Shown piece by piece: positions 3,520 through 53,799 of a DNA stretch of 64,000 nt. The notes beneath the pieces are model-generated. The model was given only the letters and a program-made list of their open reading frames with translations, made no database searches and had not been told where the DNA came from. The DNA comes from Hexactinellida sp. DTS-2022 (lineage: Eukaryota > Porifera > Hexactinellida), in contig JAPNXP010000012.1 in the NCBI GenBank assembly GCA_028753945.1, positions 3,596,001-3,660,000 on the forward strand. Reading direction: 5' to 3'. The translations under genes and the position numbers were made by a program. The stretch's first letter is position 1. Each line of letters begins with the position of its first letter.

Positions 3520-6500
3520 CAAATATAATTGTTCAAATGGCTGAAGGAATTTCCGCTCCTACTCTAAAACCCGGCGAACGTATCCAGGATTGGAAACCCC
3601 TATTCGAAGCTGCCACAGCTAGACTGCGTGCTACCGAAGGTGGAGTCCTAAAGGCGTTGCAGATGTTGGCGAACTTTGTCAACCGGACTTACGCGGTACG
3701 CAAGCTGGTGATTGAGGTAATAGAAGAGAATCGAGAAGCAGATGATTTGGGAGCGGCGTTTGAAACGTTAATGAAACAAATCGACCCCCCAAGGATCCCC
3801 TTAGAGCCCTACGCGAACTCCGCAAGACTGATTGGCAAGCAGGAGAGAGCATAGACGATTTCTTTTATAGGATGAAGGACTTGGTCCAGGAAGCCAAAGC
3901 ACCAAATACGTTAGCATACAACATTTTCTTTTCGCAGCTCCCGATTAGTGTACAGCCCCCTTTGCGCGAATGGCTAGATGCACAAGGGGAGTTGGTACTA
4001 AAGAAGCACGCGAGTTGTTGATCAAGGTAAAATCGGCTTTGGTGCAAAAGGAGATTCCGATGGATTTTGGTTACAGGGAATTGGGTCGGATCGCTCTATT
4101 GGAACAGGAAAAGGGATCAGTTGATCCGATCAAACCGGAATCGAAATACCAGAATGAAGTCACGAATGACCAGGACACGGTATATGTAACGTCTAAGGAA
4201 GAGTACAGGGGTGCGACGAGCTATCGTGGTTATGGAAGGGGTAGAGGCAGAGCAGGAAGGTCATATTCAGGGAATCAACTTCGAAACACAAAGAATTCTC
4301 GCTGCTATATATGCAACTCTGATAGACACTTCATGGCGCGATGCCCTGAGCAACACTGCCCAAAGTGTGGCGAGAAGGGTCACCCAGTATGGGACTGTCA
4401 CCACACAGGAACTGGAAGGAAAGTGCTTAGCGCTACTACAAGACATGCTGTAGTAAGAGATGCAGCAGTGATGATACCCGTCAAATGGGACAACAAAGCG
4501 ATAGATGTATTAATTGACACAGGGGCAGATCCTTAAGTGGTAGACAGAAATACGGTCGAAAGGATGGGGATATCTTACACGGCGAAAGAAGATCGAGTCT
4601 ATGGGCTGGGTAGGGCCTCGCTAGCGGTATGCGGTACGGCTCGTGTATCGATAGATGTGGGAGATGGTCAACCGGTGGATCACTTAGTAGAGGTTTTGGA
4701 TACAAACGCAAGGACAGCGATTTTAGGCCGACGATTCTTATCGTTATTCCGACAAACGGTTTTCGATTGGGAAAGGATGCAAGTTAAGCTAGGGACTCAT
4801 TGGATAAGCTCCTTAGCCATGGTACAGGGTGGCCAGGCCGTCACGAGAGCCGAGGTCGTACAAATGGAGGTGAAAGAGGTCAAGGGTGCAAGGGTTACGA
4901 AATATAACGTAAATCCCAGTCTCTCCCCGCGGGAAATTACGGTGATACACCGAGTATTGGAAAGATGGGGCGAGGTTTTCGCGGATAATCCAAAGAAGCC
5001 TAGAGAGGTCAAGACCACAGAACATGTAATCACGCTATTGGACGAGCGCCCGGTCCGACATCGTCCCCTCCGAGTATCTCCTGAAATTGAAGCAGAGGTA
5101 ACGAGACAAATAAACGAGATGCTCCAAAACAATATCATACGTCCCTCGACCTCTCCATGGGCAAGCCGAGTCATATTAGTTAAAAAAAAGGACGGATCGC
5201 ACCGTTTCGCTGTGGATTATCGTGACTTAAATGATGTTACGAAAAACGATGCTTACCCCATGCCAGACGCACGGGATATTTTTGACCGAATAGGGGGGAG
5301 CACGATTTTCTCTAAATTGGATGGAGCTTCTGCTTACTGGAGTGTACCAGTGAAGGAAGAATATATGGAGCTCACTTCGTTTGTATCAACAATTCGAGTT
5401 TAACCGTATGCCATTTGGTCTTTCGAACTCACAAGCGACCTACCAAAGGGCTGTGGATCAGGCTCTCCGAGGATGCCCGAATGTGCAGGCGTTCGTGGAT
5501 GACACATGTATTCATTCACCTGATTTCGAAGCGCATCTGAGCCACCTGGAGGGCGTACTGGAGAGGTTCTATGAGGCTGGAATTCAACTAAGAGTGGAGA
5601 AGTGTTCTTTCGGGTATGAGGAAGTGGAATTCCTAGGACATTTGGTATCTAAGGATGGAAAGCGCCCCTACTTATCACTTTATGGAGGATCGCACAGTTT
5701 CCACGGCCTATCTCGAAAAAAGAGGTGCGCCAGTTCATTGGACTGATAAACTGGTATTGGGAGTATATCCCAGTGTTTCCATTACCGCGGAACCACATAA
5801 TGAACTCACGAAAAGCGGGGTTCCGTGGATGTGGACTAAAGAGTGTGAGATGAGTTATCAAAAGTTGAAGGATCAACTGGTTAATGAGCCTCGGCAGTTG
5901 GCCTTCCCGAATTGGGATAGGCCATTCTTTGTGGAAACAGACGCGTCTAAAACTGCTGTCGGAGCTGTATTGTCCCAAGATGATGGGGATGGAAACCGAA
6001 AACTTCTTGAGTTCTGTTCGAGTAGTTTGAACGATGCGCAAAGGAAATACTCCGCAGGAGAGCTGGAAGCATACGCGGTAATTGCTGCTCTAAGGAAATG
6101 GAAGGTCTACTTACAGGTAGCAAAGGAAGGTTGTAATAATTACAGATCATCATCCGTTGCAGTGGCTAAGACGGCAAAAGGATCCTCGCAATAAATATGC
6201 CAGGTGGATCCTGGAGTTTGAGCCAATAAACTATGAAATACAGTTTCGCAGGGGAAAGTCCAATGGCTGCGCCGATTATTTAAGTCGAACACCTGTGAGT
6301 GTGGACAGGTTCATGAATGATGAGGAGAGTTTCGAGCGAAACGTGACATACTAGATCAAGAAGTGGGTGCACTTCGTTACGAACTCCGGGATGGACAGCT
6401 CAGAGACCAGAGCATTGTGAACGCCTGTCAACAACTTAGGGAGCACGGGAATATATCGGTTGGACCATATAAGAAGCAAGAAGGCATGAGGATAGACGTA

Positions 6501-7818
6501 GAGGGAAAGCTGTTTCTCAAAGAGCTTTGGTAATACCCAACCGTTTAAGGTTAAAGATGACCGAAATAGCACATCGGATATCACACCCAGGGATAGAAAA
6601 GACGTATGCCTACCTCCGAGATTGATTCTACTGGGTGGGAATGCGAAAAGACGTAGAACAAATGCTGTAGGGCATGCGTCATATATCTAGAGAACAAGAG
6701 AGCTACTAAGAAGAGGGAACCTCTGAAGCCCATCGAATTAGATGTAGCAGAGCCAAGAAGAATGATAGCCACCGACATTGCAGTCTCCGTGGTCAGCCGA
6801 CGGATACCGATATATTCTTATTATTGTGGACTTGTTTTCGAAATTTGTAGAGGTAGTCGCTATGCAAGACCAGACTGCTGAATCTGTACGGAACGCCATA
6901 GAAACAGGATGGGTGTATAGATATGGGGTACTAGATGTATTACTGTCGGACCAGGGGCGAAATGTCGATGGGGAAGTGATACGTCAGATGTGCACTTATT
7001 TCGGGATTGAGAAGAGGCATTCTTCACCTTATCACCCCCAAGGGGATGGCCAAGTAGAGCGTACAGTAGAGATCGTTAAACAGGCTCTACGATGTTTGCT
7101 GTCAGCGAAAACTGGACAAGACTGTTTGGCCGAATATCCTGCAGGAAGTGGCCTTCAATGTGAATTCACTGAAGAGTAGCAGCACCAACTTTACACCCCA
7201 AGAACTGATGTTTGGAGCGAAAATTAGGTCGGCGCTGGACCAGACGATAGGAACTAGCAAGTACCCGACCACCGAAAAGAAAGAAGAATGGCACGAAGCG
7301 GAAGAACACATGATCCGCAGCAAGGCGCATAGTAAAGAGTACTACGATAGAAGAACAGTTGGCGCACCTACGTTAGTGTGTACTGGGCAAACGATAATGT
7401 ATAAGAACTTTACTCGGAGCGATGGTCTAGAGAAGATGTACACTGGACCGTACTCGGTGGTCGATGTAAAGTTTCCAAACGTTAAAATCAAAAAGGGAAA
7501 TATCCGATTTTCATGGATCCACCTCAATGATTGCAAAGTTATGCCCATGTCTGCCACGGATCAGTCGTTGGAGTTGGAACACGAGCATGAAGGGTCAGAG
7601 GCAGGACAAGACAGCTCGGGAGAAGTGGGGTTCGGTACGGATGAACAGTCTCAAGACCGAGATACTGTGGTAGTCGAGAAACTACCTGGAGAACAAGTCG
7701 GGATGGAATGCTCGGAGCAGCACATATTGAGGCGTTCATCCAGGATTCGGAAGGAACCGGATAGGTTCGGCAACACCATACACTAGCATCAACACCTCAT
7801 ATTTGGGGAGGGAGATGA

Positions 7819-9379: not shown

Positions 9380-10969
9380 TCAATCCCTTGAGCTGTAGTC
9401 CACGCATGATTCTATTGTGGCAGCAATCCCCGATGCCTCTGCTCCATGGCCACGCACTTCCAAGAACTTTTGAACATTTTCCAGGGCCACTATCACCTCT
9501 TTATAAGTATTCAACACTAGTGGAGCATCCTCTACAATTTCTACATCTTCAATGTGGTCACTTTCCGTATCTGTGATCTCACCTTCTTGGGCAGGTTGAC
9601 CGATATCTTTCAAAAAATTGTCTTCCCAATTACAATCTAGATTTGTACACACTGATAGATCCCCATCGCAATGTATATATTCATTTACGTTACAACCTTC
9701 ATGAACGGTCTTGTCAATAAGAGTCTGTAGTCCTATTAGATATTGATCTGATTCTAAAAATGGGTCATCGCTGTCATCATTTTCGTAGAGTCCACGATTA
9801 ATAACATCCATGGAACCACTCAGAATACCAGCATTTCTGAAACATTTAGAAATAGTTTCAGGATTAACCATGTCCCAAGCATTGGCTACCCATTGGATTG
9901 CCTTAAGTATATTCACTGATTTAGAAACATCAGATGCTGTGTCGCATTCATCAATCTTAGCAAGAACATATCTCAGAAAAAAGCGGCGATAGTGAACTTT
10001 GAAATTTTGTATGACCCCAAGATCTAGAGGCTGAAGCTTGGATGTAGTATTAGCAGGTAGAAAGCAAATGCTAATATTCGTGAATTTTCCTAGTAGATTA
10101 TCTGGATGGCATCCTGCATTATCCATGAATAGTAAGACTGAGCGAGATTCGCGAATCAATCTGGAATTTATTCGCGTGAGAATAGTTTTTAGGATATCAG
10201 CAGTCATCCAAGCTTTCTTCTGATCAAAATATATAACAGGCAACATACTTTTATCCATTTTCCCGAAGCATCTTGGATTTTTTGATTTCCAAATGACTAC
10301 AGGTGTTTCTTTTTCACCAGTAGCTGTGACTATAAGAGTCACTGTCAGTCTATGCTTGCTTTTTTTCCCTCCTGCACATCGTTTTCCTTTCTCTATGAAT
10401 CCACGATCAGGCAAAGCCTGCCAAAATAAACCAGTTTCATCTAGATTCCAGATATTTCGTTTTCTATAGCCATGCACAATCTCTGGAACCTCTCCTTCCA
10501 AGAGTCAATCGTCGTTCCAGCTACATCACCAGATTCTCCACAGACTTTTAATTATTTCATGTTATATCGTTTTTTCCATTTCTCCAACCAGCCATTGCTC
10601 GCTTTAAAATGATGCTCCCCGAGGCGTGTAGCGATCTGCATTCCCATTTCAATCAGTTGTGGGCCCCCTGGGTAAATCTTTTTCGAGCATGCAAGTGTAC
10701 CATTCATATAACAACCTATTAATTTCAGTATATTTTGATATGCGCTCAATCTTACCAGTGAACACTCGGCTTCCTGAAACATTTTTGAGATACAAAGACA
10801 TGATAGAATCCTTACTCCTCAGTATTTTAGATATTTGTGTTTTTCCACATCCGAAAATCTTCCCTAAGGCTGCTATTTTAATTCCAGGATTGTTATCATG
10901 TGTCTTGATTACATCTACTCTCATTTGTAACGTTAAATATTTCTTCTTTTGGAGTGAGGTTGATGCCAT
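9380..10969 (-). pseudogene. Tigger/pogo transposase (CENP-B-like HTH and DDE), inactivated
   Basis: Read on the minus strand from MASTSLQKKK at 10969. The N-terminal 106 aa contain a psq/CENP-B helix-turn-helix (IAALGKIFGCGKTQISKIL). A second HTH region follows (GWLEKWKKRYN, near 10560). The DDE catalytic core has LDETGLFW, LLFMDNAGCH and QPLDLGVIQNFK, i.e. the Asp triad of pogo elements, and ends in an acidic tail. Three lesions are visible: a frame change near 10660, an in-frame stop just after the second HTH (near 10550) and a frame change near 10500. The long 3' frame (9380-10501) stays open. It would cut and paste DNA at TA in trans if intact; this copy is probably dead. Confidence 0.9.
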
Positions 10970-39198: not shown

Positions 39199-42100
39199 TA
39201 TTTTAGCACTGTTATCCACGGTGAATGACTAAAATCCACAAATTCCATATTTAATTTAATTTTATTTAATCCATTGTCTAGTAATACTACAATTAAATAG
39301 AAGCCAGCTGGAATTTATAAGTTAAATCAATATATTTAACGCAAGTTGAAGCAATAGAATAAGATTTAACAAGTAAAATCAATCTAATTATTACAAGTTG
39401 AAACAATAGAATTAGAATTAGTTTTACTGAAATTGAAGTGTTGAGTAAACAAAGGAAATTTGCAACTCAATTGTGGCACAATCTAAGCCCAATTTGAAAA
39501 TTCGTGCACTGTGAAAAGGTGTAGAATTTAATTCTCTATCCGTACATTTAAATTTTATCAAGCTCAATATTAATTATTTCATGTTATGAGCCATAATTAG
39601 TTTAAATAGGTGTTGAAATCATTTGATAAAAAATCGTAACCCCAGGTGCAAATTAGACGATCACTCCGCAACTACATGCTAAGTTTCAGCCCTCAATGTA
39701 TACAGGTGTGGCCAGGACACCTGCTACGGAGAAAAAATAAAAATAAAGGCAGTGATTCCAATACTGGGCCACTATACTATAGTATAGTCGGCACAGTAAT
39801 AAAGGCAGTGATTCCAATACTGGGCCACTATACTATATTATAGTCGGCACAGTAATAAAAAATCCCAAATTGCAGCTGTGCCGACGCATGTTCCTTTGGT
39901 GGCACTATATTTGTTGGTTGTTTATTGATACTCCAAAGGAACATGCTGTCGGCGCAGGCTGCAATTTTGGATTTTTTTTCGCCAAGTCATCAACGCCGTA
40001 GGTGTGAAGAACTATTTGTAAATTGGTCGTTGTCACAAGGAACGTTAGATAAATTTGAAGTTTGTTTCTATCATAAACCATCTTGAGTTTAATGCCATTC
40101 ATTCATTATGTATTGATAATAAATTATATTATTAGTTATTTATTTTAGCAATGTTATCCACGGTGATTTGAGTTTAGTCAACAAATTCCTTATATTATTA
40201 TATTATATTTAATCCATTGTATAGTAATACTAGAATTAAATAGAAGCCAGCTGGAATTTATAAGTTAAATCAATATAATTATAGCAAGTTGTCAATTGAG
40301 TAGGATTTAACAAGTTAAATCAATATAATTATTACAAGTTGAAACAATGGAATTAGATTTCACAGTTTTACTGAAAATGAAGTGTGAGTAAACAAAGAAA
40401 TTTCAACCCCCATTTATTGCAGAAATTAAACCCTTTATTGAAAGTTTTCTTCTCCCATCAGACGCAGAATTTTATGGTGAATCCAATGGTGAAATAGAAA
40501 TTTCGGATTTAGTATAATATCTTTTGAGTTATGGCCCAGACAAAATTTGAAAGGTGTTAAAGATGTGTGCAAAATGTGTTAATCAAAAATCGGAACCCCA
40601 GGTGCAAATTAGACGGTCCATACGTACCTATACGCCAAGTTTCAGCCCATCAACTATAAAGCTCTGGCCAAGGCACCGTATACGGAGAAAAAATCCTAAT
40701 AATAATAATAAAAATCCAAAATAGCAGCCTGTGCGACGCATGTCCCTTTGGTGGCACTATATTTTGTTGGTGGTTTATTGATAGTGCCTCCAATGGAACA
40801 TGCTGTCGACACAGGCTGCAATTTTGGATTTTTTTTACATGTAATCATCACTATGAAGGTGTCAAACCATTTCAGGAATGTGTTTCGGAAGACAACGACC
40901 CTTAGTAAATTTGAAATTTCGTTTTAGCTCACTTCATTTCAAAGATATTCAAGTTTCAGTAGAATATAATAAGTGATGAGTAAGCATTTTTTATGTACGT
41001 GTTGGGTGATCACCAACACCAACCAACCCATTCGAAATATATAATTCACAAAATTGTAAAAACACATTTTTTAAACGATGTCATCATCACCTCAAGGTGT
41101 CACGACCCATTTGTAGAGGTGTCACGTGCCATATGGTTCAATTGATAAATTGGAAGTTTGTTTCTATCTTGTATCATCTTTGAGATTAATGATATTTAGC
41201 TAATTAGTATAAATATTCAATTAATATTATTTATAATTTAACACCAATTTCAATGTCAACTTACATTTATTAAGTTAAATTAATTTGTCATAAATAATAA
41301 ATAAATTAATTTTGCTATCAAATTTCAATTCCGACACTCGATAACCCCTAATAAACAAATTGGAAGCATTTATATAAGTCGTAACTGACTTATTAATTAT
41401 AATTAATTACGTCAGTATATTAACAGTGCAAGAGTATTCTGCAGAAGGAAATATAATCACATAATCTGTTGTTGTTATGGAATGTAGAATCTTAATTGTC
41501 AATTAGAAAATAGAAGCCATCTCACAAGTTGAATCAATATAATTATCACAAGTTGAAACAATAGAATCAGATTTAACACTTTCATTTGAACTGAAGTGTT
41601 AGTAAACAAAGGGAACTTGATACTCAATTGTGGCACAAACGAAACCCAATTTAAAAATTCATGCACTGTGAGAAGGTGTAGAATTAGATTCTCTATCGAA
41701 TGCATATAAATAGAAAATTGGGGCACCATTTATTGTTATTTTTCCAACATTAAACCGGTGTAAAAATGTGTCCAAAAAAATGTCATCAAAAATCGTGACC
41801 CCAGGTGCACATTTGTAACCCGTGAGACACAAATCCTGAAAATTTGGGCTCTTAGTTGATAAATTTCTGTTCTGTGGAGAGGCTACGGATAAAAATATAC
41901 CAAGGCACTCATTTCAATACTGGGCCACTATACTATAGTATAGTCGGCACAGTAATAATATCTAACCAAGGTAGTAAGATTAGAACTGGGCCACAATACT
42001 ATAGTATAGTCGGCACAGTAATAATTAGTGTTGTAACGTCGGAAAATTTCCTAGGATATTTCCGGAAATTTCCAAAAAATAGCTAAATTTCCGGAAATTT

Positions 42101-43110
42101 TACAAGGAAAAATTATTATACATACCTAGTTTTTTTAATTTTGATAAACCATATCAATAATGTAGAGTTGTTACTGTGCGCTTGTTATTCTCCCTCATGA
42201 CAGTCTAACTTAAGTAGCACTGTTGTATGAGATTTCTACTACTTTACATACAAGGACCATGGACACACTTTTGCTATGAGATTCTTACTACCAACTTCGT
42301 TCATAATATCCATTGTTTATTATTAATTGCTCTCTTCTATTTAATAACTTCTAGCACAGTATAACTCGGGCAATACATACTCTTTCGGGAAGAAAATTAT
42401 GTGCGTATTATCCGATTATACTGTCACGAAATATTCGGTCCGACCGGACCAAATAATTCGTGACAGTACTTATACGAGCTGAATTAATTAAGTAGATAGA
42501 AATAAAATAAATGGAAAGTTAGTCATTAATAAGCATAAGTAGCCAGGGGCTTCAGCTAAGACCTGTTTTTAAATACAGTTCTAACTTCTAATACATAATA
42601 ATTAGTACGTAGTTTCAAATTTTATAATCAAATGATTTAATTGCGATTCCAGATTTGCCTACGATTCTTTAATATTCGTAATGAAAATTCGCTATTAAAT
42701 CGATAAGCGAAACTTAAATTATTGAAAATTAGTGTATATTTTTTTAAATACAATAATTTATATCTAAGAATATTAATGTCCTTTCGATATAGATCCCAAA
42801 TTGGATAAAAGGTCGATTTTATAACCATGTTAACTGATCGTATTATTAAATTAGATTAATTTCAATACAAAATTTACCAAATAAATTACATAAACTCTAC
42901 ACACTGACTTTTGGCTTTATGCTGCAAGGTTGTGTAAACAACACTACAAAGTTTTGACCTTAAAATATAAGTGATAATTATTGGTGTGAAATGCGTCATT
43001 CATTATAGAGAAAGACCTCATCAATAATCTAATTTATTATGAAAAACATCAGCTAATTACTAAATAAATTTTAGGAATTGAAAACAAAAAAGATTTGTCT
43101 TGACATATTT

Positions 43111-46100
43111 TCACTCATCATCTAACACCACGATACTACTAAAACTATCTGTAGTGAAGTAAGATTCGTAACGACAGTTTATCAAATCTGTCACAGGCTC
43201 AAAATGGTCGTCAACGTTATTAATATATAGAGCCTGTTTAGTGTAATCCGTCTTGTTAGGATGGTAGCGATACCATCTAATTTGATTCCAATTTTTCTTA
43301 GTATCAGAGTGTTCGTTTGCAACAAACAGATCTACATCTAACATAAAAGAAGTTGCAAGTATTTCAACATCAGTTGCCCAAGTAGTTTCAATGTCCATAT
43401 TAGAACGTAAGAGATATTCTCTTGGTGACTCCCCATTGAATTTCAATTCCAAGTAACGAGAAATTAAACTTGCTCCTTGTACGGCTATAAACCTGCATAT
43501 TTTCTCCACGAAGTTTTTTATGGTAATCTTGTGAACCGCTTAACACAGCAGAAATTGCACGGAAGAAACAATTACCATCGGGCTCGATAGGGTGTAACTC
43601 GAGGGGGACAAAACTGCCCAATGGCTTCCCAATGTAATAATTTGCCTGAGATAATTCCTTCTCGAATGGTATGCCCAGGAGATCGCATTTAGATATTTGC
43701 CAAACTTTAGATATAGGAGAATAAAGAGGAGAAGATTGCAAACTATTATGTTGACGAATAGTGTAAGGAAGAAGTTTAAGATCGTCTGTACATCTCGATA
43801 TTATGAGTTTTTCTTCAATATACTCAACGACCTAATAAATAGATTAACATTATTACATTTTAGAATTAAAGTATTGAATAAACTTACTGTAGCAAGAAGT
43901 ATTTGATAGACATAGTCGAATGGTTTTTCCCTGGGTGATGTACTCATTTCAGAAAAGGCTGTTGTAGTCCATTTTAACAGACAGTTAATGATTTCCTCTA
44001 GCTATACAATAAATGTGTGTAAATAATAATTTGATATTCACAAAAATGACGTACAAAAACAACTAAAGTTATTCATATTACCATTTCTGATCGACTTTTA
44101 TCCTTTATCACGTCTAATAATATTGAGATAGGTTGCCTAACAACCTTCAATTTTGATTCGCATAGATCTTGATGTAGTTGAGATATATATGTCTTGCTTC
44201 TAATATGCTTTATGATTTCTTCCTAAAAAAGTACATATAACTGTGTATATCCACTTCTTTAAATATACATTTATTCGAAGCATATCCATTTATTTATGAA
44301 ACATTAAATAACTAACAATATGTATAAACCAAGCAGAAAATTTACAATTTCATTGGCTAGGGTGCAAACAAAGTTTGTTGATAACTGAATATTCAAGTTT
44401 TATTGCATATTTCGCAAGCTCAATAATTTAATGAATATGCTCAAAATTCCTTTATCAACTATCTGAGCTTATCAGCACGAAATTTATAGTAACTATGTAT
44501 GTCAATAATACCTTCAGACAAATTAAATTGCAGCTGATTGCTTTGTGTGGGATGCCAAAAGTAAACGTTGAAGAACATTCCTTCGTAACCTAGAAAAGGA
44601 TGTTATGCTACTCTCAAATCATGTGGATAATTTTGTCATCCAAGTACGGTATAATAAATTTGTCAAAGTAGTCATAATATATATATTATTAAAATAATTA
44701 TTCTTGTATTTCTGTATGTCTGCCAGGATTGTACGTATCAGAAAGATGAAAACTGCGTTTGTAGCTCAGATATAAACTAGTGGGTATACTATGTAACCAA
44801 TTACAAAAATTTCGTAATTATTATTTTATAATATCAAGCAGGGTTGTAAATCAAATCAAATCTTCTAAATAATTGATTTGATTTGAATGAAGAAAAAAAT
44901 ATTTATTTACAATCCTGAAATTTATTATAAAGAATCGAGTTCTTGTTGACAATGTATAAAGTGAGACTGTTATTACCTTTACACTTTTGGTATTCCTGAT
45001 ACTATCCATTTGAATGATTAAATGTGAACATCGTTTTCTTTCCAGAATTTGTCCATCAGATTTTATATCCTGTATAAATAGAGTTTAATAAATATGTAAA
45101 TGTAGCTAAACATCGTGTTTTTATATAATACCTCATCTAATCGGGGATAATATTTTCTTGTAAGATGGATTGGGTATTTCATTATCTTATCATCCTTTTT
45201 CGTAATCAAGTGACTGTCTGTCTTATCTGTTACTTGAAATGGCCCCTTGTATCTTGGCTTTTTCTTCGTACCTGGCATCTTCTTTTCCTTATCCATGTCA
45301 AGAACCACAAACAAATCCCCAGTCTTAATTTCTGGCCTAAATATGCACGAAGTAATATGTAATTTGTGGTATACAGTGGAGCCTCCCATAACGGACACTC
45401 CAAATAGCGGACAACCTCTAAATAACGGACAACCCTCGAGGCACGGATTTATGTATTTAGCATATGTCTAATAGAAAAGCAACCTCTAAATAGCGGACAA
45501 CCTCTAAATAACGGACAACGGTTCCGGTCCCGAGGTGTCCGTTGTTCAGAGGCTCTACTGTATTTACTTTAATTTAATGGTTAAAAAATAAACCTGTTGA
45601 TTTCTACTTTCATGTCATATGATCTTTTTTGCTTTGTTTGTTCTATTTTTATATTTGTTCGAGCATTGTCACGTTCAAAACCTCTTTGTTGTTCTAATTC
45701 GATAGTCCAGTTATCTTCTCCCGCTTGACTAGCTTCTTCTTCCACCACAGTTTGCTCAGTTGAATAGTTATCACTCAATAAACGAATGAGCGGGAGATGA
45801 TCAAAATCACGACCGTACATCAATTGGAATGCACTATATCCGGTAGAACGTTTTCGATAACTATTAGCAGACAATACTGCTAGCTGTAACTTTTGGGGCC
45901 ATTCGCCATCATTGTCAGTTATCATTTTAGATATTTTTCTAAATTAATATAGAAAAATATCTAAAATATCAATCTACTTAGTAATTAATAATTATCATTA
46001 TCTTTCAAATTACGTATCTTACATCTTAAGAATTTTATTATGTGCCTCTACCAGTCCATTTCCTTGAGGTCGGTAGGCAGTAGTTGCTCGATTATCAACA

Positions 46101-49100
46101 TTGAGAACAGCATGATATTCTTTGAATTCCTATACATTATTAGTTGAATGGATTACAATTTAAAACACAATTGTTGTCAGTTTGTTTGTGCATTATTAAC
46201 AGGAAAGAAGATCATTTTATATGTTGTCAATAATCTATTGGTTTTATCCAGGGTTGCCAATCCAATCCAATCCAATCCAATCCAATCCAATCCAATCCAA
46301 TCCAATCCAATCCAATCCAATCCAATCCAATCCAATCCAATCCAATCCAATCGATAATCCAATCCAATCCAATCCAATCGATAATCCAATCCAATCGATG
46401 TAAATTTTGGCAATCGATATCGATAACCAATCCAATCGATGATATGATCTGACAATCCAATCCAATCGATAATCGATAAAAATCATCGATTATTTTTCGA
46501 TTATTTGTCGATATTCTATCTATTATTTGTCGATTTTCTCTAGAATATTTGTCGATTATTTGTAGATTTTATATCGATTATCAATCGATTATATTATTCA
46601 TCGATTATTTATCGATTGTGTGTAAATCATTTTAAATTATAGAATATAAATTCAGGGTTCTTTATCTTGTCTCCATGATTAAGAAATATGACACTACCCA
46701 GGCAAAAGTATTTGAACAACAATATTATGAATTTATACATTTAAGTTTAGAGCAGCATAATAACATCTATAGATGCTTCAATATGGATATTCACATAAAA
46801 AGACACCGTATATAAAGTATAAGCAAACAGCAAAAATTTTGAATTCACATTTTTATGGAGGTGTTTAACCCATTAGCTATAATTTTGTCAAGTTTTTCAT
46901 GCATATTCGTCCAAACAAATAATTATATTAATATTATTCGCATTACTCGTAAATCGAAAAAAATCGATAAAAAATCGATAATCGATAAAAATCCGTCGAT
47001 AATTATCCAATCGATGAAAACTTCGGGCAATCCAATCGATAATCCAATCGATACAAAATTCAGCAATCGATAATCGATAAGTTCTCTCAATTGGATTGGA
47101 TTGGCAACCCTGGTTTTATCACTAGTATATGCATTGGATGTACGCAAAAATTCTATACATCGTAATATTTTCAATTTTTGCTTGGTTGTGCTCTTTTGGC
47201 AGAAATAGACCTGTTTTGTAAAAATATGTCCGGCTGTAATAATATGTCCAGCTATTTATATGGACATATTTTTACAAAACCATGGATACTTTGTAAAAAT
47301 ATGTCCACTTACGATTAGAGTAAGAATCTCCGCATTTTAGTCTATTTTCTAGAGATATCACGTCCATTCTGGGTTTTGTAACAGCACAGATGTTGTGTTT
47401 ATTTACGGTCACTCATTTATTCAATTCCCGAATACAAGAATCAATGCTGTTTTTGATTATTCGTTAATACTTTAGGTATCTCTGGGTATCTTAGAAACTA
47501 AGTTGTCTAAATTGATTTATCTATATCTATATATTAAAAGCGGAATTGTTGTGTGTTTGTTTGTTTGTTTGGATGTTTGTCCATATTAATTGAAAATACC
47601 AACTATACCGGCTAGAAAGCTGAAATTTGGTATATATGTTAGGTAACTAAACGAGATTAGCAACTGATAATTATGCGGTTCATTAGCAATCAATCCCCGC
47701 TCACACGAGATATGCGCATTCACTAATTAGTAGATTATATATAGACTTACAACACCTAATTTACTAGTACTGCTATATCTAATCGTTATTATTCATAATT
47801 GTTCGTGTACATATATTTACTTATCAAACGTATAACTTGGGCACAACATATAGGAGTAGTTTGTCATAGCGACATGGGTCTATTGGTTTTCTAAGCGAAA
47901 TATTGTAAGTATGACATCACACGGTAACCTTTCCCTTAATAACTTTTGCAAATTTGACTCGGTTAGTATAAATTTTATATGAAAATAGACAACACATAAT
48001 GGAACACCTTTGTGAAAATTATCAATTTTACGAACTTATATAGCGAAGTTATTAGTTAAAATGTGTCCAATTATTTGTAGCATTATGTGGGTGATCTGAT
48101 TTGTTTGGTTAACAAGAATGCGCTTAGAGTAGTTAACTTCTCTGTAATAAGACTATCAATGGAATTACGTAATTTTAACCTAGGATTTCTACTTCTGCCT
48201 AACGATGAGATTTACAGTCAACATCCGGTAACTCGACTGCCCGTTAACTCGAACATTCGCTATCTCGAACGGATTTTTCATTCCCCTGAGGGTTCGAGTT
48301 ACCGGATGTTGACTGTATTATGTTAATTATTGCTATCAATTAAATTAAATAATTCACTAACCCAGCTCCTGCAAATTAATTGTTCATGGTGAGATGTATA
48401 AATGTTTATTACTATTAAATCTAATATTTTGCAACCCTGAATTTACCTCTGCATAATAATAGTTTAATGGTGAGAATAAGACCGCGAAGCGGTCTTATTC
48501 TCATCTTTAAACCATTATTATGCAGAGATTAAATCCCGAGTTGGTAAATTACTTTGCAATACAATTTACTGAAATAAATAAATAAATTGTGTATAATTTT
48601 ATTAATTTATCAACCACAGGTTTCAATTTATTTGAGCTAACAAGCTAACGTATTAATATATACTAGTCAATTGCCCGTCGCTTTGCTGACGTAATATAGA
48701 AATATTTTCATGATACATTTGATATCCATACTATTAAAAGAGTATTGTCTGTGTCTCAGCAGCCGATTGGTATGCCCCAGTGGTCGTAGAAAGTCGAGAC
48801 CGATACCAAAAGATGTGCAATGTTTACAAACATCGGAATTTTTTAAATTATAATTTCAAAATTTCACCACCTCTTTGAGATATGGTGACAAATGGTCTCG
48901 ATATTACAGTGATTCGCCTTTTCGAATAGTTTTTTTGTTTCGCATGCGCATATGTTACTCCCTATCTGAGACATTATCAGCTGCACGAACTTCGGGATTA
49001 AGGCGTGTTTTTCTTTTCAACATTTTATTGCGCCATAAAAGCTTTATGTCACACATTGCCTTAGGTTTTCGATGAGTTTCCCGGGTTTGTAAAAGGTTCC

Positions 49101-51309
49101 ATTGAATGTTTAACAAAATGATTTTTGTTTCCGAATGTGGTATTTATTCAAAAAATGAATGTCAACAATGCATATTAGGAGATAAATATTAGTGGTTGAA
49201 TTGGGCCAATCAAAATGCGATTTGAGATCGGTTGCGGACACACACACAGACACTGCTCTATTAATAGTATAGATTGCTGAACGAACTACCCTTAAGAATT
49301 ATTGAGCTATTAATTAACTAATAATTTATAACTAATGAGCAATGAGAATAACTTACATAACATAATTTCCCAAACAAATTACAGTAACTAATCACAACCC
49401 AAAATGAATTTTAGGCACGGGTTATTAAGTCATAGTCACTAAGTGTGTAATTCACTAGCCACAGGTGAACTCATTATTAATATTATTGCTTTTGGGGAGG
49501 GAAAGGCCGCAAATCGGCCGTTAATTGTATCGCGTAGTGCCTAACACGAACGAACAAAAGTCGCGAAGCGACTTTTGTAAGAGAGTGATCCGTCGCGAAG
49601 CTACCGAGACCGAAGGGCTCGTAATTGTAATATTCTGACAAATTCTGAAAAGTGTAATCTCTTATACAATAATTACGCAATAACACTGCTAATATTTAAG
49701 AGATCTGTTAACTAGTAAATAAATTCTGTAACCGTTAACCGATTAACCAAATCCTGGTTTGCACTGGCTGTTAGGTAGGTTCAACTGTAATTATAACAAG
49801 TCACAATTGAGCTAATTGTTTCTAATCTAGTGGACATTTGACTGTATTTGTAGGTTAACTAATACTACAGTCCAACTTCTTATTCTCGAAATAAAAATTT
49901 GTCCTACTCTCCCCGGTGCAGTGTTTGCAACTTTGCATTAACAAGAGTCATAGCATCTATACACTAAGGCAATGGCGCGCTTATAAATTTTGAATTAATA
50001 CTAGTTATAATTATCACTAGGGTTTGTCGGACATATTTTTACACCCGGACATATTTTTACAAAGTATCCATGGTTTTGTAAATAAGTGTCCATATAAATA
50101 GCTGGACATATTTTTACAAAGTATCCATGGTTTTGTAAATAAGTGTCCATATAAATAGCTGGACATATTTTTACAGCCGGACATATTTTTACGAAACAGA
50201 CCTGTTGATTTGGACCAATTTATGACAGAGTGCTTCAATTAACAAATTTATCAGTCACAACCATATTGATTACAACTAATATTCAATAAACCTGAACATA
50301 ACAATATTACATTACATATTCGCTTACTTTCAATTACCAAATTGCATTCTATAACAACCGCACATCAATGGTGTTACCATTGATGTATTCAATTCCTATC
50401 TGACTTGTTATACAAATTGTAATTGGACATTCCATATAGTTAAACTAGTATATTACATCAATGAGTTTACACTATTAGTAATTAATAATGATCACCTATC
50501 TTAGCTTCCAAAAAAATAATCAACTGAATTTATATATTTACCTTGCTAGTAAATTCTTTGCCCTGATCATGTTGAATGATTGTCGGAATACCATAGATCA
50601 GATAAATTTCCGAAAGAGCATCAGTAACTGATTTAGTAGTTTTCGAAAATAGTACTCTTGCGGCAACAAATTTGCTTAAATAACATACTACTACTAATAA
50701 ATGTTTATGGCCTTGAGAGTTTACTGGTAAATCGGTGACCAAATCCATTCCAATATGGTACCAGGGTGTTTTGGGCGGGGGGATGGGTTTCAGTTTACGC
50801 TGCGGATGCGAAAGAAGCGATGCATTCATTTGACATTGGTTACAACTTTGAACCTAAAATTTGAAAATAAATTCTGTATTAATTAATTAATTATTGGTTG
50901 TTAAAACGAAAGTTTACTTACATAATCGCGAATGTGTTTATGCATGCCCTTCCATCGATATTTGGACTGTACCATTTCTGTCGTGTGATTGATGCCAGAA
51001 TGCTCTGGGTCGTGGTATAACCTGAGTATTTCGGGAACTTCATCTTTAGTGGGATACAACAGTCGTACTGTATTTTTGTTTTTTAGTGAATAAATCTTTC
51101 GAAATAAATAAACAATATTAAATTTTACTGAATATTCATCAGTAAATAATATTGCAAACCTTATAAAGATGACCATCTTCATCTAATTGAAACGTTGAGG
51201 CGATGTTTCTGTAGTTAAGCCTTGAAAACTTCGTCGATGAATATAATTGACAAGGTAATGTGTTCGTTGTCAAATAATTTAAAATATCCTTGTAATCAGA
51301 GAGTTCCAT
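43111..51309 (-). CDS. Integrase-like transposase fused to OTU protease (11 exons)
   Basis: Exons (minus strand): 51309-51160, 51095-50922, 50853-50542, 46129-46023, 45938-45594, 45336-45132, 45069-44977, 44589-44512, 44222-44082, 44001-43888, 43831-43111. All introns are GT-AG and all phases match; total about 812 aa. Exon 1 starts MELSDYKDILNYL. H2C2 zinc finger: YHDPEHSGINH (exon 2) and CNQC (exon 3). DDE core: IGMDLVTDLP and QHDQGKEF (exon 3), PQGNGLVEAHN (exon 4), with exactly 35 residues between Asp and Glu. STGYSAFQLMYGR (exon 5) and YKGPFQV (exon 6) match the GPY/F tail. Exon 11 holds an OTU domain: EPDGNCFFRAIS (Asp, Cys) and NVDDHFEPV (His). One frame change lies in the OTU region near 43500. 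Resembles Ginger1/KRBA2-type proteins; no reverse transcriptase is present. Intron 1 uses a weak GTTTGC donor. Intron 3 (4.4 kb) carries the large insertions. Confidence 0.82.
45374..45560. mobile_element. TA-inserting MITE in intron 5 of the integrase-OTU gene
   Basis: Ends CAGTGGAGCCTCCCATAACG and TTCAGAGGCTCTACTG, TA both sides. Internal AACCTCTAAATAACGGACAA copies. Pogo/Tigger-like. Confidence 0.88.
46249..47112. mobile_element. hAT-type MITE with expanded (TCCAA)n array
   Basis: Ends CAGGGTTGCCAATCCAATCC and GGATTGGATTGGCAACCCTG; perfect 8-bp duplication GTTTTATC at 46241-46248 and 47113-47120. About 20 uninterrupted TCCAA pentamers follow the left end, then ATCGATAATCC variants on both sides. 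Long frames of SNPIQ or GLDWI repeats are microsatellite translations, not proteins. Confidence 0.92.
48215..48315. mobile_element. 101-bp TA-inserting MITE
   Basis: Ends CAGTCAACATCCGGTAACTC and its near complement, TA both sides. Almost wholly palindromic with GAACATTCG/CGAACGG in the middle. Pogo/mariner-like. Confidence 0.9.
48728..49270. mobile_element. TIR element with ATACTATTAAAAGAG ends
   Basis: Left ATACTATTAAAAGAGTATTG followed by TCTGTGT; right ACACAGACACTGCTC then TATTAATAGTAT. About 540 bp, no coding capacity, class uncertain. Confidence 0.6.
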
Positions 51310-53799
51310 TGTAAACGGATTATAAAATACAATACCATAATTAAATTAATTAATATGTTATATAAAGTTTATACTGTATAACAATATACTAAACCCAAAT
51401 GATAAACAATGGACGAAAAAGTTTTTTCCTAATAATGTTTTAGGAGGTAAGAATTTCATAGCAAAAGTGTGTCCATGGTCCTTGTATGTAAAGTAGTAGA
51501 AATCTCATGGTAGTAGAAATCTCATACAACAGCACAAACATTTTGGCAATTTCAAATACAGTTACTAAGCATAATTTGAAATATGTAGTCTTTCCAGAAA
51601 TTTCCGGAAATTTCCATAGAAAACAAAATTTTGGGAAATTTTACAACACTAGTAATAATAACCAAGGCAGTAAGATTAGAACTGGGCCACTATACTATAG
51701 TGTAGTCGGCACAGTAATAAAAAATCCAAAATTGCAGCCTGTGCCGACGCATGTTCCTTTGGTGGCACTATATTTTGTTGGTTGTTTATTGATAGTGTCT
51801 CCAAAGGAACATGCTGTCGGCGCAGGCAGCAATTTTGGATTTTTTTTCGCCAAGTCATCATCACTATGAAGGTGTTAAATTATTTCAGAAGGTGTTTCAA
51901 AAGGCAATGACCCTTAGTGAGTTGTAAGTTTCGTTTTAGCTCACTTTATTTCAAAGATATTCAAGTTTCAGTAGAATATAATAATTGCTGAGTCAGCATT
52001 TTTCAGGTGCGTGTTGGGTGATCACCCAACACCAACCAACCCATTCGATATATATAATTCGCAAAATTGTAAAATACATTTTTTGACGATGTCATCATCA
52101 CCTCAAGGTGTCAAAACCCATTTGTAGAGGTGTTACGTGGCATAAGGATCAATTGATAAATTTGAAATTTGTTTCTATCTTCTATAATCTCTGAGATTAA
52201 TGATATTTAATTAATTAGTATAAATAATCATTAATATTATTCATAATATAACACCAATTTCAATGTCAACTTACAATAATTAAATTAAATTATTTTGCCA
52301 TAAATAGTAAATTAATTAATTTGGCTATCAAATTTCAATTCCGCACACTCGATAACCCCAATAATCTAATTGGAACAGTCTCTATAAGTTAAAGACAGAG
52401 CGATTAATTATGTCAGTGTATCCATTGTGCAGAATATTCACGCAGAAGTATATAATCACATAATCTGTTGTTGTTATGGAATGTAAAATCTTAGTTTTCA
52501 ATTATAAACAATAGTGTAAGATTTAACAAGTTTAATCAATATATTTATTACAAGTTGAAACAATGGAAGTAGATTTAACAGTTTACAGAAACTGAAGTGT
52601 GAGTAAACAAAGAAATTTATACCCCGATTTGTGGCATAAACTAACGTAAAGTTGAATATTTTTTATTTTCCAAAAGGTGTAGAATTAAATTAGCTATCCA
52701 ATATGAAAATTTTATCAAATTCACAAGGTATGATTTCATGTAATAGCCATAATTAGTTTAAATAGGTGTTAAAATTATTTGATCAAAAATCGTAACCCCA
52801 GGTGCAAATTAGACGGTCACTCCGAACCTACATGCCAAGTTTCAGCCCATCAACTATAAAGCTCTGGCCAGGGCACCGTCTACGGAGAAAAAAAAAAAAA
52901 TTGCATCCTGTGCCGACGCATGTTCCTTTGGTGGCAGTATACGTATTTTGTTGGTTGTTTATTGATAGTGCCTCCAAAGGAACATGCTGTAGGCACAGGC
53001 TGCAATTTTGGATTTTTTTTCGCCAAGTCATAATCGCCTCAAAGTGTCAAGAACCATTTGTTAATTGGTCCGAGTCACAAGGAACGGTTGATTAATTTAA
53101 AGTTTGCTTCTATCATATACCATGTTGAATTAAATGCCATTCATTCATTAGGTATTGATAATAAATTATATTATTAGTTATTTATTTTAGCAATGTTATC
53201 CATGGTTGGTTGAGTTGAGTCAACAAATTCCTTATATTATATTATTTAATTTAATCAATTGTATAGTAATACTAAAATTAAATAGAAGCCAGCTGGAATT
53301 TATAAGTTAAATCAATATAATTATCGCAAGTTGAATCACTAGAGTAGGATTTAACAAGTTAAATCAATATAATTATTACAAGTTGAAACAATAGAATTAG
53401 ATTTAACACTTTACTGAAATTGAAGTGTCAGTAAACAAAGAAATTTCAACCCCCATTTATGGCAGAAATTGACCCCTTTATTGAAATATTTTTTCTCCCA
53501 TCAGACGCAGAATTTTATGGCGAATCCAAATGTGAGATAAAATTTGGGGGTTTAGTAAAACATATTTTGAGTTATGGACCAGACAAATTTTGAAAGGTGT
53601 TAAAGATGTGTCAAAAATTTGTTAATCAAAAATCGTAACCCCAGGTGCAAATTAGACGGTCCCATCGCACCTACATGCCAAGTTTCAGCCCATCAACTAT
53701 AAAGCTCAGGCCAGGGCACCGTCTACGGAGAAAAAATAATAATAAAGGCAGTGATTCCAATACTGGGCCACTATACTATAGTATAGTCGGCACAGTAAA

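Follow-up and report, generated by a model that had tools for sequence, protein, structure and literature searches.

Gene model and domain content

A 64,000-nucleotide stretch of the hexactinellid genome of Hexactinellida sp. DTS-2022 (contig JAPNXP010000012.1; hereafter the window) contains a minus-strand gene in which an integrase is followed by an OTU-like domain. Is this gene part of a cut-and-paste transposon, a domesticated host gene, or a retrotransposon fragment beside an unrelated protease, and what might an OTU domain do there? An earlier note, made from the letters alone, had favoured a Ginger-like element carrying an eleven-exon gene with ten in-phase junctions.

We modeled the gene with ten exons, GT...AG at all nine introns and nine in-phase junctions (Table 1). 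The previous exon count was off by one because a frame break in exon 10 had been taken for a tenth junction. No counterpart of exon 7 was found in the relatives L021, L022 or L101.

The predicted H2C2 zinc finger and integrase core were both recovered above the cut-off in a Pfam search (PF17921, E 7.9e-11; PF00665, E 4.5e-9). Counted by hand on the translation, the second Asp (HDQGKEF) is separated from the Glu (GLVEAHN) by 35 residues, a spacer that intron 3 interrupts, in agreement with the split D-D-35-E core described earlier. The GPF module was likewise read in exon 6 as RYKGPF, where the Pfam match to SH3_Tf2-1 was weak and below the cut-off (E 0.03). In exon 1, the register Y..P..F..Y (NYL, LP, STF, LYK) is plausible for the YPYY motif that Ginger1 has immediately ahead of the zinc finger; L021 is similar, and L022 lacks the corresponding Pro.

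The OTU motifs EPDGNCFF and DHFEPV fall at the positions where aligned relatives have retained Asp, Cys and His, which upholds the claim of an OTU domain with these three motifs. In Pfam, the Cys half of the window domain gave E 0.0014 (19.6 bits versus a cut-off of 23.3), the His half gave no OTU match, and the OTU domains of relatives passed with E values of 1e-10 to 2e-9. Because the window halves alone yield a weak match or none, the OTU call rests on the aligned relatives. The predicted catalytic Asp, Cys and His are present in these candidate deubiquitinases. The frame of exon 10 breaks near 43505-43520, inside the OTU, and the window copy can no longer produce the full integrase-OTU fusion in one frame. 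The earlier impression that almost everything is open is to be qualified accordingly.

Table 1. Positions of the element and its parts in the window
Feature	Positions	Strand	Remarks
Whole Ginger1 element	42221-51531 (9311 bp)	-	Defined by termini and empty sites
Left target-site duplication (TSD) copy	42217-42220 (4 bp)	none	GCAC
Right TSD copy	51532-51535	none	GCAC
Left terminal inverted repeat (TIR)	42221-42293	+	Starts TGTTGTATGAG; 3' side of gene; common to L021 and L101
Right TIR	51447-51531	-	End is CATACAACA
Exon 1	51160-51309	-	Start codon, YPYY-like stretch
Exon 2	50922-51095	-	H2C2 zinc-binding region, PF17921
Exon 3	50542-50853	-	Zinc-finger CxxC and two catalytic Asp; rve, PF00665
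Intron 3	46130-50541 (4412 bp)	-	Enlarged by nested repeats
Ginger-like non-autonomous element nested in intron 3	47212-50198	none	Ends TGTTTTG...CGAAACA; TSD GACC/GACC at 47208-47211 and 50199-50202
Exon 4	46023-46129	-	Catalytic Glu of D-D-35-E
Exon 5	45594-45938	-	From splice model and relatives
Exon 6	45132-45336	-	GPF module, RYKGPF
Exon 7	44977-45069 (31 aa)	-	Open, GT/AG borders; least certain exon
Exon 8	44082-44222	-	Kept in L021 and L022
Exon 9	43888-44001	-	Kept in L021 and L022
Exon 10	43111-43831	-	OTU-like domain; contains the frame break

Ends and insertion site of the element

The element terminates in TGTTG...CAACA inverted repeats, whose arms align over 62 nt at 98% and 23 nt at 100% identity. 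Inverted repeats at both ends had been noticed before; they begin and finish beyond the 43111-51309 interval then assigned. Both the TGTTG start and the arm lengths lie within those of Ginger1 (TGTNR, about 40-270 bp). Allowing up to two mismatches, the first 22 nt of the TIR occurred at 89 places in the genome searched (112.4 Mb, 18 contigs), versus 2 for a reversed-pattern control. Twenty further inverted pairs with the same ends were found, of which 15 were flanked by identical 4-bp TSDs, three by TSDs with one mismatch and two by TSDs with two mismatches.

Among the matches listed, the left flank has 39 other scored copies; 15 of these run straight into the right flank, and two more fit this empty-site pattern once unaligned bases are allowed for; the remaining copies had no right-flank match among those listed. 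The empty-site copies represent the repeat into which the element inserted, with flanks that join exactly where the insertion is absent. The element is precisely inserted into an older repeat. Because the ends, the target scar and the uninterrupted copies of the insertion site are all present, we identify it as a transposon.

No reverse transcriptase was recognised by reading the open frames of 42000-52500 or in exon-level searches. A Ty3/gypsy integrase would be expected to have a reverse transcriptase beside it and LTRs on either side; neither was recognised here, and the element ends in inverted, not direct, repeats. The earlier statement that no reverse transcriptase is near is thus correct at the scale of the element, and too broad for the window, where a Ty3/gypsy-like ORF was recognised by reading at 4537-5403.

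Relatives and selection on the OTU-like domain

Two coding relatives, L021 and L101, have the same ends as the window element. When paralogues with the same fusion were sought, as had been proposed, 62 of the 150 integrase hits listed had an OTU downstream in the same orientation (controls: 2 upstream, 1 on the opposite strand), and this order recurred at similar spacing, with a median of 2.1 kb among the matches listed. Conversely, 88 of the 150 OTU hits listed had no listed integrase match within 8 kb upstream. No relative with an OTU clearly belonging to a gene separate from the integrase was found among those examined in the genome sequence, so the homologues do not contradict the fusion.

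On aligned blocks only, and with synonymous sites saturated, comparison of the window copy with L021 gave pN 0.14 and pS 0.69 for integrase exons 2-4 (197 codons), and pN 0.22 and pS 0.77 for the OTU exon (237 codons). Both parts have been under past purifying selection; the OTU codons are constrained, and therefore the domain was kept by selection.

Recent copies occur among the related families, for example L025 and L028, with 99.6% identity over 4.4 kb. In the family L035-L038 no OTU was found; this family carries an open frame of 432 aa that contains Cys and His stretches and matches no Pfam family, and that could be a different protease in the place of the OTU. In family B (L031-L034) we could read a right or a left end, never both sides of one copy, and for this reason we claim no TSD for it.

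Main reading and less probable alternatives

Our main reading is of a single Ginger1 DNA transposon in decay, 9311 bp long, with an H2C2/D-D-35-E/GPF integrase-type transposase and a C-terminal OTU-like domain, its frame now broken, which would have moved by the steps proposed below; we give it a probability of about 0.93. It is very improbable that the gene is instead an immobile host gene domesticated from Ginger1, with many introns like GIN1/GIN2. With nine introns it is closer to the GIN genes, which have six to eight, than to published Ginger1 elements, which have 0-4, and it was under past purifying selection, but selection is also expected in an active transposon lineage. Intact inverted repeats, the TSD and above all the empty sites largely refute a host gene, the coding relatives elsewhere share the ends, and the reading frame in the window is broken. 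Slimmer still is the chance that a Ty3/gypsy fragment placed an integrase beside an OTU gene by accident. Although the best solved-structure relative of the integrase exon is the Ty3 polyprotein (7q5b, E 4.3e-7), DNA-transposon ends and a 4-bp TSD enclose integrase and OTU jointly, introns run throughout the gene, the integrase-OTU order is repeated elsewhere, and neither reading nor the exon-level searches revealed an LTR or a reverse transcriptase between the ends. Eleven exons, with a small intron removing the frame change, can hardly be the answer either. Some GT and AG dinucleotides are visible by eye near the break, but the two OTU halves share one frame across this position in all 14 relatives (from 13 loci) that have both, 13 of them stop-free in the stretch tested and L031 with one stop, and such an intron would remove residues that the relatives keep. 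We rejected it on their continuous frame.

For the OTU, protection of the transposase against silencing or turnover linked to ubiquitin, as the earlier note supposed, is a reasonable guess. A substantial minority chance goes to a domain acting mainly on ubiquitin of DNA-repair or chromatin proteins at the transposition site rather than protecting the transposase. Such a role was suggested for Ginger1 in Bao et al. 2010 (PMC2836005), where OTU/Ulp1 domains are proposed to be active in transposition, with DNA repair as an example; the present data do not distinguish between the two roles. Against it, analogous deubiquitinases of Helitrons have been suggested to prevent proteasomal degradation (Nat Commun 2022), in a passage which also states that transposon OTU domains have not yet been activity-tested.

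Proposed transposition and target preference

By analogy with its family, a transposase multimer would bind the inverted repeats and free the element, and its 3' ends would be joined over a 4-bp stagger at the palindromic target TTA-GNNC-TAA, with host repair filling the gaps to give the GNNC duplication. Less surely, the OTU may strip ubiquitin from the transposase or from chromatin and repair proteins at the insertion site. Shorter elements that share these ends are numerous and were probably mobilised in trans.

All 24 perfect TSDs were GNNC, centred in TTA-GNNC-TAA, and none was CCGG or CCGT. Ginger1 in Hydra, in contrast, has TSDs of CCGG (75%) or CCGT/ACGG (24%), as given in Bao et al. 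2010. Since this published preference was derived from 112 Hydra elements, we take the difference as one of lineage. We tentatively speculated that the genome holds a large Ginger1 radiation whose changed, palindromic target, TTA-GNNC-TAA, is common to three or more families that differ in their ends, and whose OTU has remained under selection in separate lineages. If so, the OTU would be a working part of transposition, not a passenger. A GNNC target would broaden the known target choice of Ginger1, and could already be in print, for example in Repbase. The genome contains a number of related Ginger1 families, recent copies among them, whose ends can be read and in which the OTU is conserved; the question posed in Bao et al. 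2010, on the role of a ubiquitin-protease tail in transposition, can therefore be tested with natural elements.

Comparison with known systems

The integrase-OTU fusion is not new. A literature search combining Ginger, sponge and OTU found no paper, and the fusion has been a published feature of Ginger1 since Bao, Kapitonov and Jurka (2010, PMC2836005) described it in several families, so the novelty implied by the earlier note is unsupported. In that account, the Ginger1 transposase has H2C2, DDE and GPY/F modules and a C-terminal OTU or Ulp1 domain (OTU in Ginger1-1_HM and Ginger1-1_AC), and the element has TGTNR termini, TIRs of 40-270 bp and a 4-bp TSD. The window element resembles the OTU-bearing members in all these respects, and our putative assignment to Ginger1 is made by matching domains, ends and TSD to this description. 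Unlike the published elements, it has nine introns rather than 0-4, and its 9311 bp, due partly to nested insertions, exceed the published range of about 2.6-7 kb.

The vertebrate genes GIN1 and GIN2 descend from Ginger1 and share with the window gene a Ginger1-type integrase and several introns; they are host genes without TIRs, whereas the window copy has ends, a TSD and empty sites. Ginger2/TDD elements are also integrase-type and cut-and-paste, with TGTNR ends, but Ginger2 is described in Bao et al. 2010 as lacking GPY/F and YPYY and targeting AT-rich RTATAY, in contrast to the GPF module and GNNC core seen here. Helitrons and Helentrons with OTU or VTD domains, as described in PMC9741609 and PMC6431247, likewise couple a transposon protein to a deubiquitinase-type domain; their enzyme is a rolling-circle Rep/helicase, whereas that of the window element is a DDE integrase.

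Structure of the integrase-OTU gene

The window (C4:3596001-3660000) was analyzed within a searched genome of 112.4 Mb in 18 contigs. The integrase-OTU gene lies on the minus strand, with 10 exons bordered by GT...AG and nine in-phase junctions. Searching the exons for domains recovered the expected PF17921 and PF00665, and the exact D-D-35-E core of the earlier note was borne out, with 35 residues from the second Asp to the Glu, spanning intron 3. Of the 18 splice sites, 14 have GT or AG at the homologous position in L021, a coding paralogue elsewhere in the genome. The donor of exon 5 and the acceptor of exon 6 did not lie at the homologous positions checked, and no counterpart was found there for exon 7 and its two splice sites.

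Exons of the integrase-OTU gene in the window
Exon	Position	Strand	Match or motif
1	51309-51160	minus	
2	51095-50922	minus	PF17921, E 7.9e-11
3	50853-50542	minus	PF00665, E 4.5e-9
4	46129-46023	minus	
5	45938-45594	minus	
6	45336-45132	minus	RYKGPF
7	45069-44977	minus	
8	44222-44082	minus	
9	44001-43888	minus	
10	43831-43111	minus	

Intron 3 carries a nested second Ginger-like insertion (47212-50198) with TGTTTTG...CGAAACA ends, inverted repeats of about 100 nt and a GACC/GACC duplication. The same intron holds an ATCCA-type tandem repeat block (46248-47113) between 24-nt perfect inverted repeats (CCAGGGTTGCC...), which looks as if it were a mobile or satellite unit. Elsewhere in the window, long open frames at 4537-5403 and 7070-7786 (plus strand) and 9380-10504 (minus strand) read, by eye, like Ty3/gypsy pol pieces and a pogo/CENP-B-type transposase.

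Frame break and conservation of the OTU domain

The two halves of the OTU, one with the Cys (LHPIEPDGNCFFRAIS) and one with the His (ALYINNVDDHFEPV), lie in one exon but in different frames, which had been taken as an eleventh exon and a tenth junction. Both halves share a frame in all 14 relatives that have both, and the stretch tested between them is stop-free in 13 of these. Because the relatives keep one frame there, the change is a break rather than an intron, and the extra exon and junction are withdrawn. Two relatives with the same ends are also broken: L021 by frame changes in exons 5 and 10, L101 by a frame change in exon 3 and a stop in exon 10.

The window Cys half falls under the Pfam cut-off for OTU (E 0.0014), and a Pfam search with the His half returned no OTU model. 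The OTU domains of the relatives L025 (1e-10), L022 (1.2e-9) and L031 (2e-9) exceed the cut-off, and the window OTU lines up with all three at the Asp, Cys and His residues. Comparing the window with L021 gives a pN/pS of 0.22/0.77 for the OTU exon and of 0.14/0.69 for integrase exons 2-4, as rough ratios from aligned blocks only, with synonymous sites saturated. Amino-acid change was nevertheless clearly held back in both. In the text cited, Bao et al. 2010 (PMC2836005) suggest a part in transposition and repair for the Ginger1 OTU; for related Helitron deubiquitinases, an excerpt of a Nat Commun 2022 paper suggests protection against proteasomal degradation, and its authors there describe transposon OTU domains as previously untested.

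Element ends, target-site duplications and empty sites

The inverted repeats reported at both ends were confirmed, starting at 42221 (TGTTGTATGAG) and finishing at 51531 (CATACAACA), with GCAC on either side; L021 and L101 have matching ends. With at most two mismatches allowed, the genome contains the repeat's first 22 nt at 89 places, versus 2 for the control. From these places 22 inverted pairs were chosen by eye, window included, and 20 of the other 21 were retrieved: 15 of the 20 have an identical 4-bp duplication, three have one mismatch and two have two. Among 10 family A pairs chosen by eye, eight duplications are identical and two have one mismatch. With the 7 imperfect pairs excluded, the pooled perfect duplications (23 pairs plus the window) all read G..C (24/24), mainly GTAC and GGCC, in surroundings that prefer A or T and form the palindrome TTA-GNNC-TAA. 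GGCC also flanks both sides of three additional family A loci, and four family C loci show, by eye, GCAC (3) or GACC (1). Two shorter elements, L099 and L100, share the ends of the window element and retain remnants of its gene. At L021 (C11:6640364-6640367), a family A element begins right after the 4-bp site ending the window-family copy, so that two Ginger1 elements stand head to tail with GTAC common to both.

The window element is inserted into an older dispersed repeat (flanks 42021-42220 and 51536-51655) with at least 40 scored matches per flank, part of 156 and 1224 first-pass candidates. When 40 scored left matches (39 without the window) were paired with 40 scored main right matches, at least 15 flank pairs abutted exactly, with a single GCAC and no insertion; 2 further pairs fit once unaligned bases are allowed for.

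Integrase and OTU across the genome

We scored the best 150 of 858 candidate places for the exon 3 protein and the best 150 of 440 for the OTU model. For 62 of the 150 listed integrase matches, a listed OTU match follows downstream on that strand at a distance of up to 8 kb (median 2.1 kb), compared with 2 that have one upstream and 1 that has one on the opposite strand. Among the matches listed, 88 integrase and 88 OTU matches have no such partner, some of them due to scoring only the best 150 of each list. In family C (L035-L038) the search found no OTU. These loci carry a 432-aa open frame downstream of a Ginger1-type integrase (L035, 5768-7066); it has no Pfam match, and its Cys and His stretches, judged by eye, suggest a protease. 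Further OTU matches (C1:885884, C9:445475, C18:2008865) lie within repeated open frames of ~1260 aa, with no integrase nearby among the matches listed; these are perhaps another transposon class.

Comparison with Ginger1

That the window element is a damaged transposon of a known kind is well supported. The integrase-OTU fusion itself is of modest interest; the target preference and the evidence that selection kept the OTU are of somewhat greater interest. In the portion cited, Bao et al. 2010 (PMC2836005) describe Ginger1 proteins with H2C2, DDE, GPY/F, YPYY and a C-terminal OTU or Ulp1, and Ginger1 DNA with TGTNR ends, 40-270 bp repeats and 4-bp duplications. The window element agrees with Ginger1 in the tested features other than the target and YPYY. 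For YPYY the picture is mixed: exon 1 reads Y..P..F..Y in a plausible register and L021 is similar, whereas the Pro is missing in L022. However, its target sequence differs from that of Ginger1 in Hydra, and it has more introns than published Ginger1. The shared features therefore place it within Ginger1, as a member that differs in target preference and in its larger number of introns.
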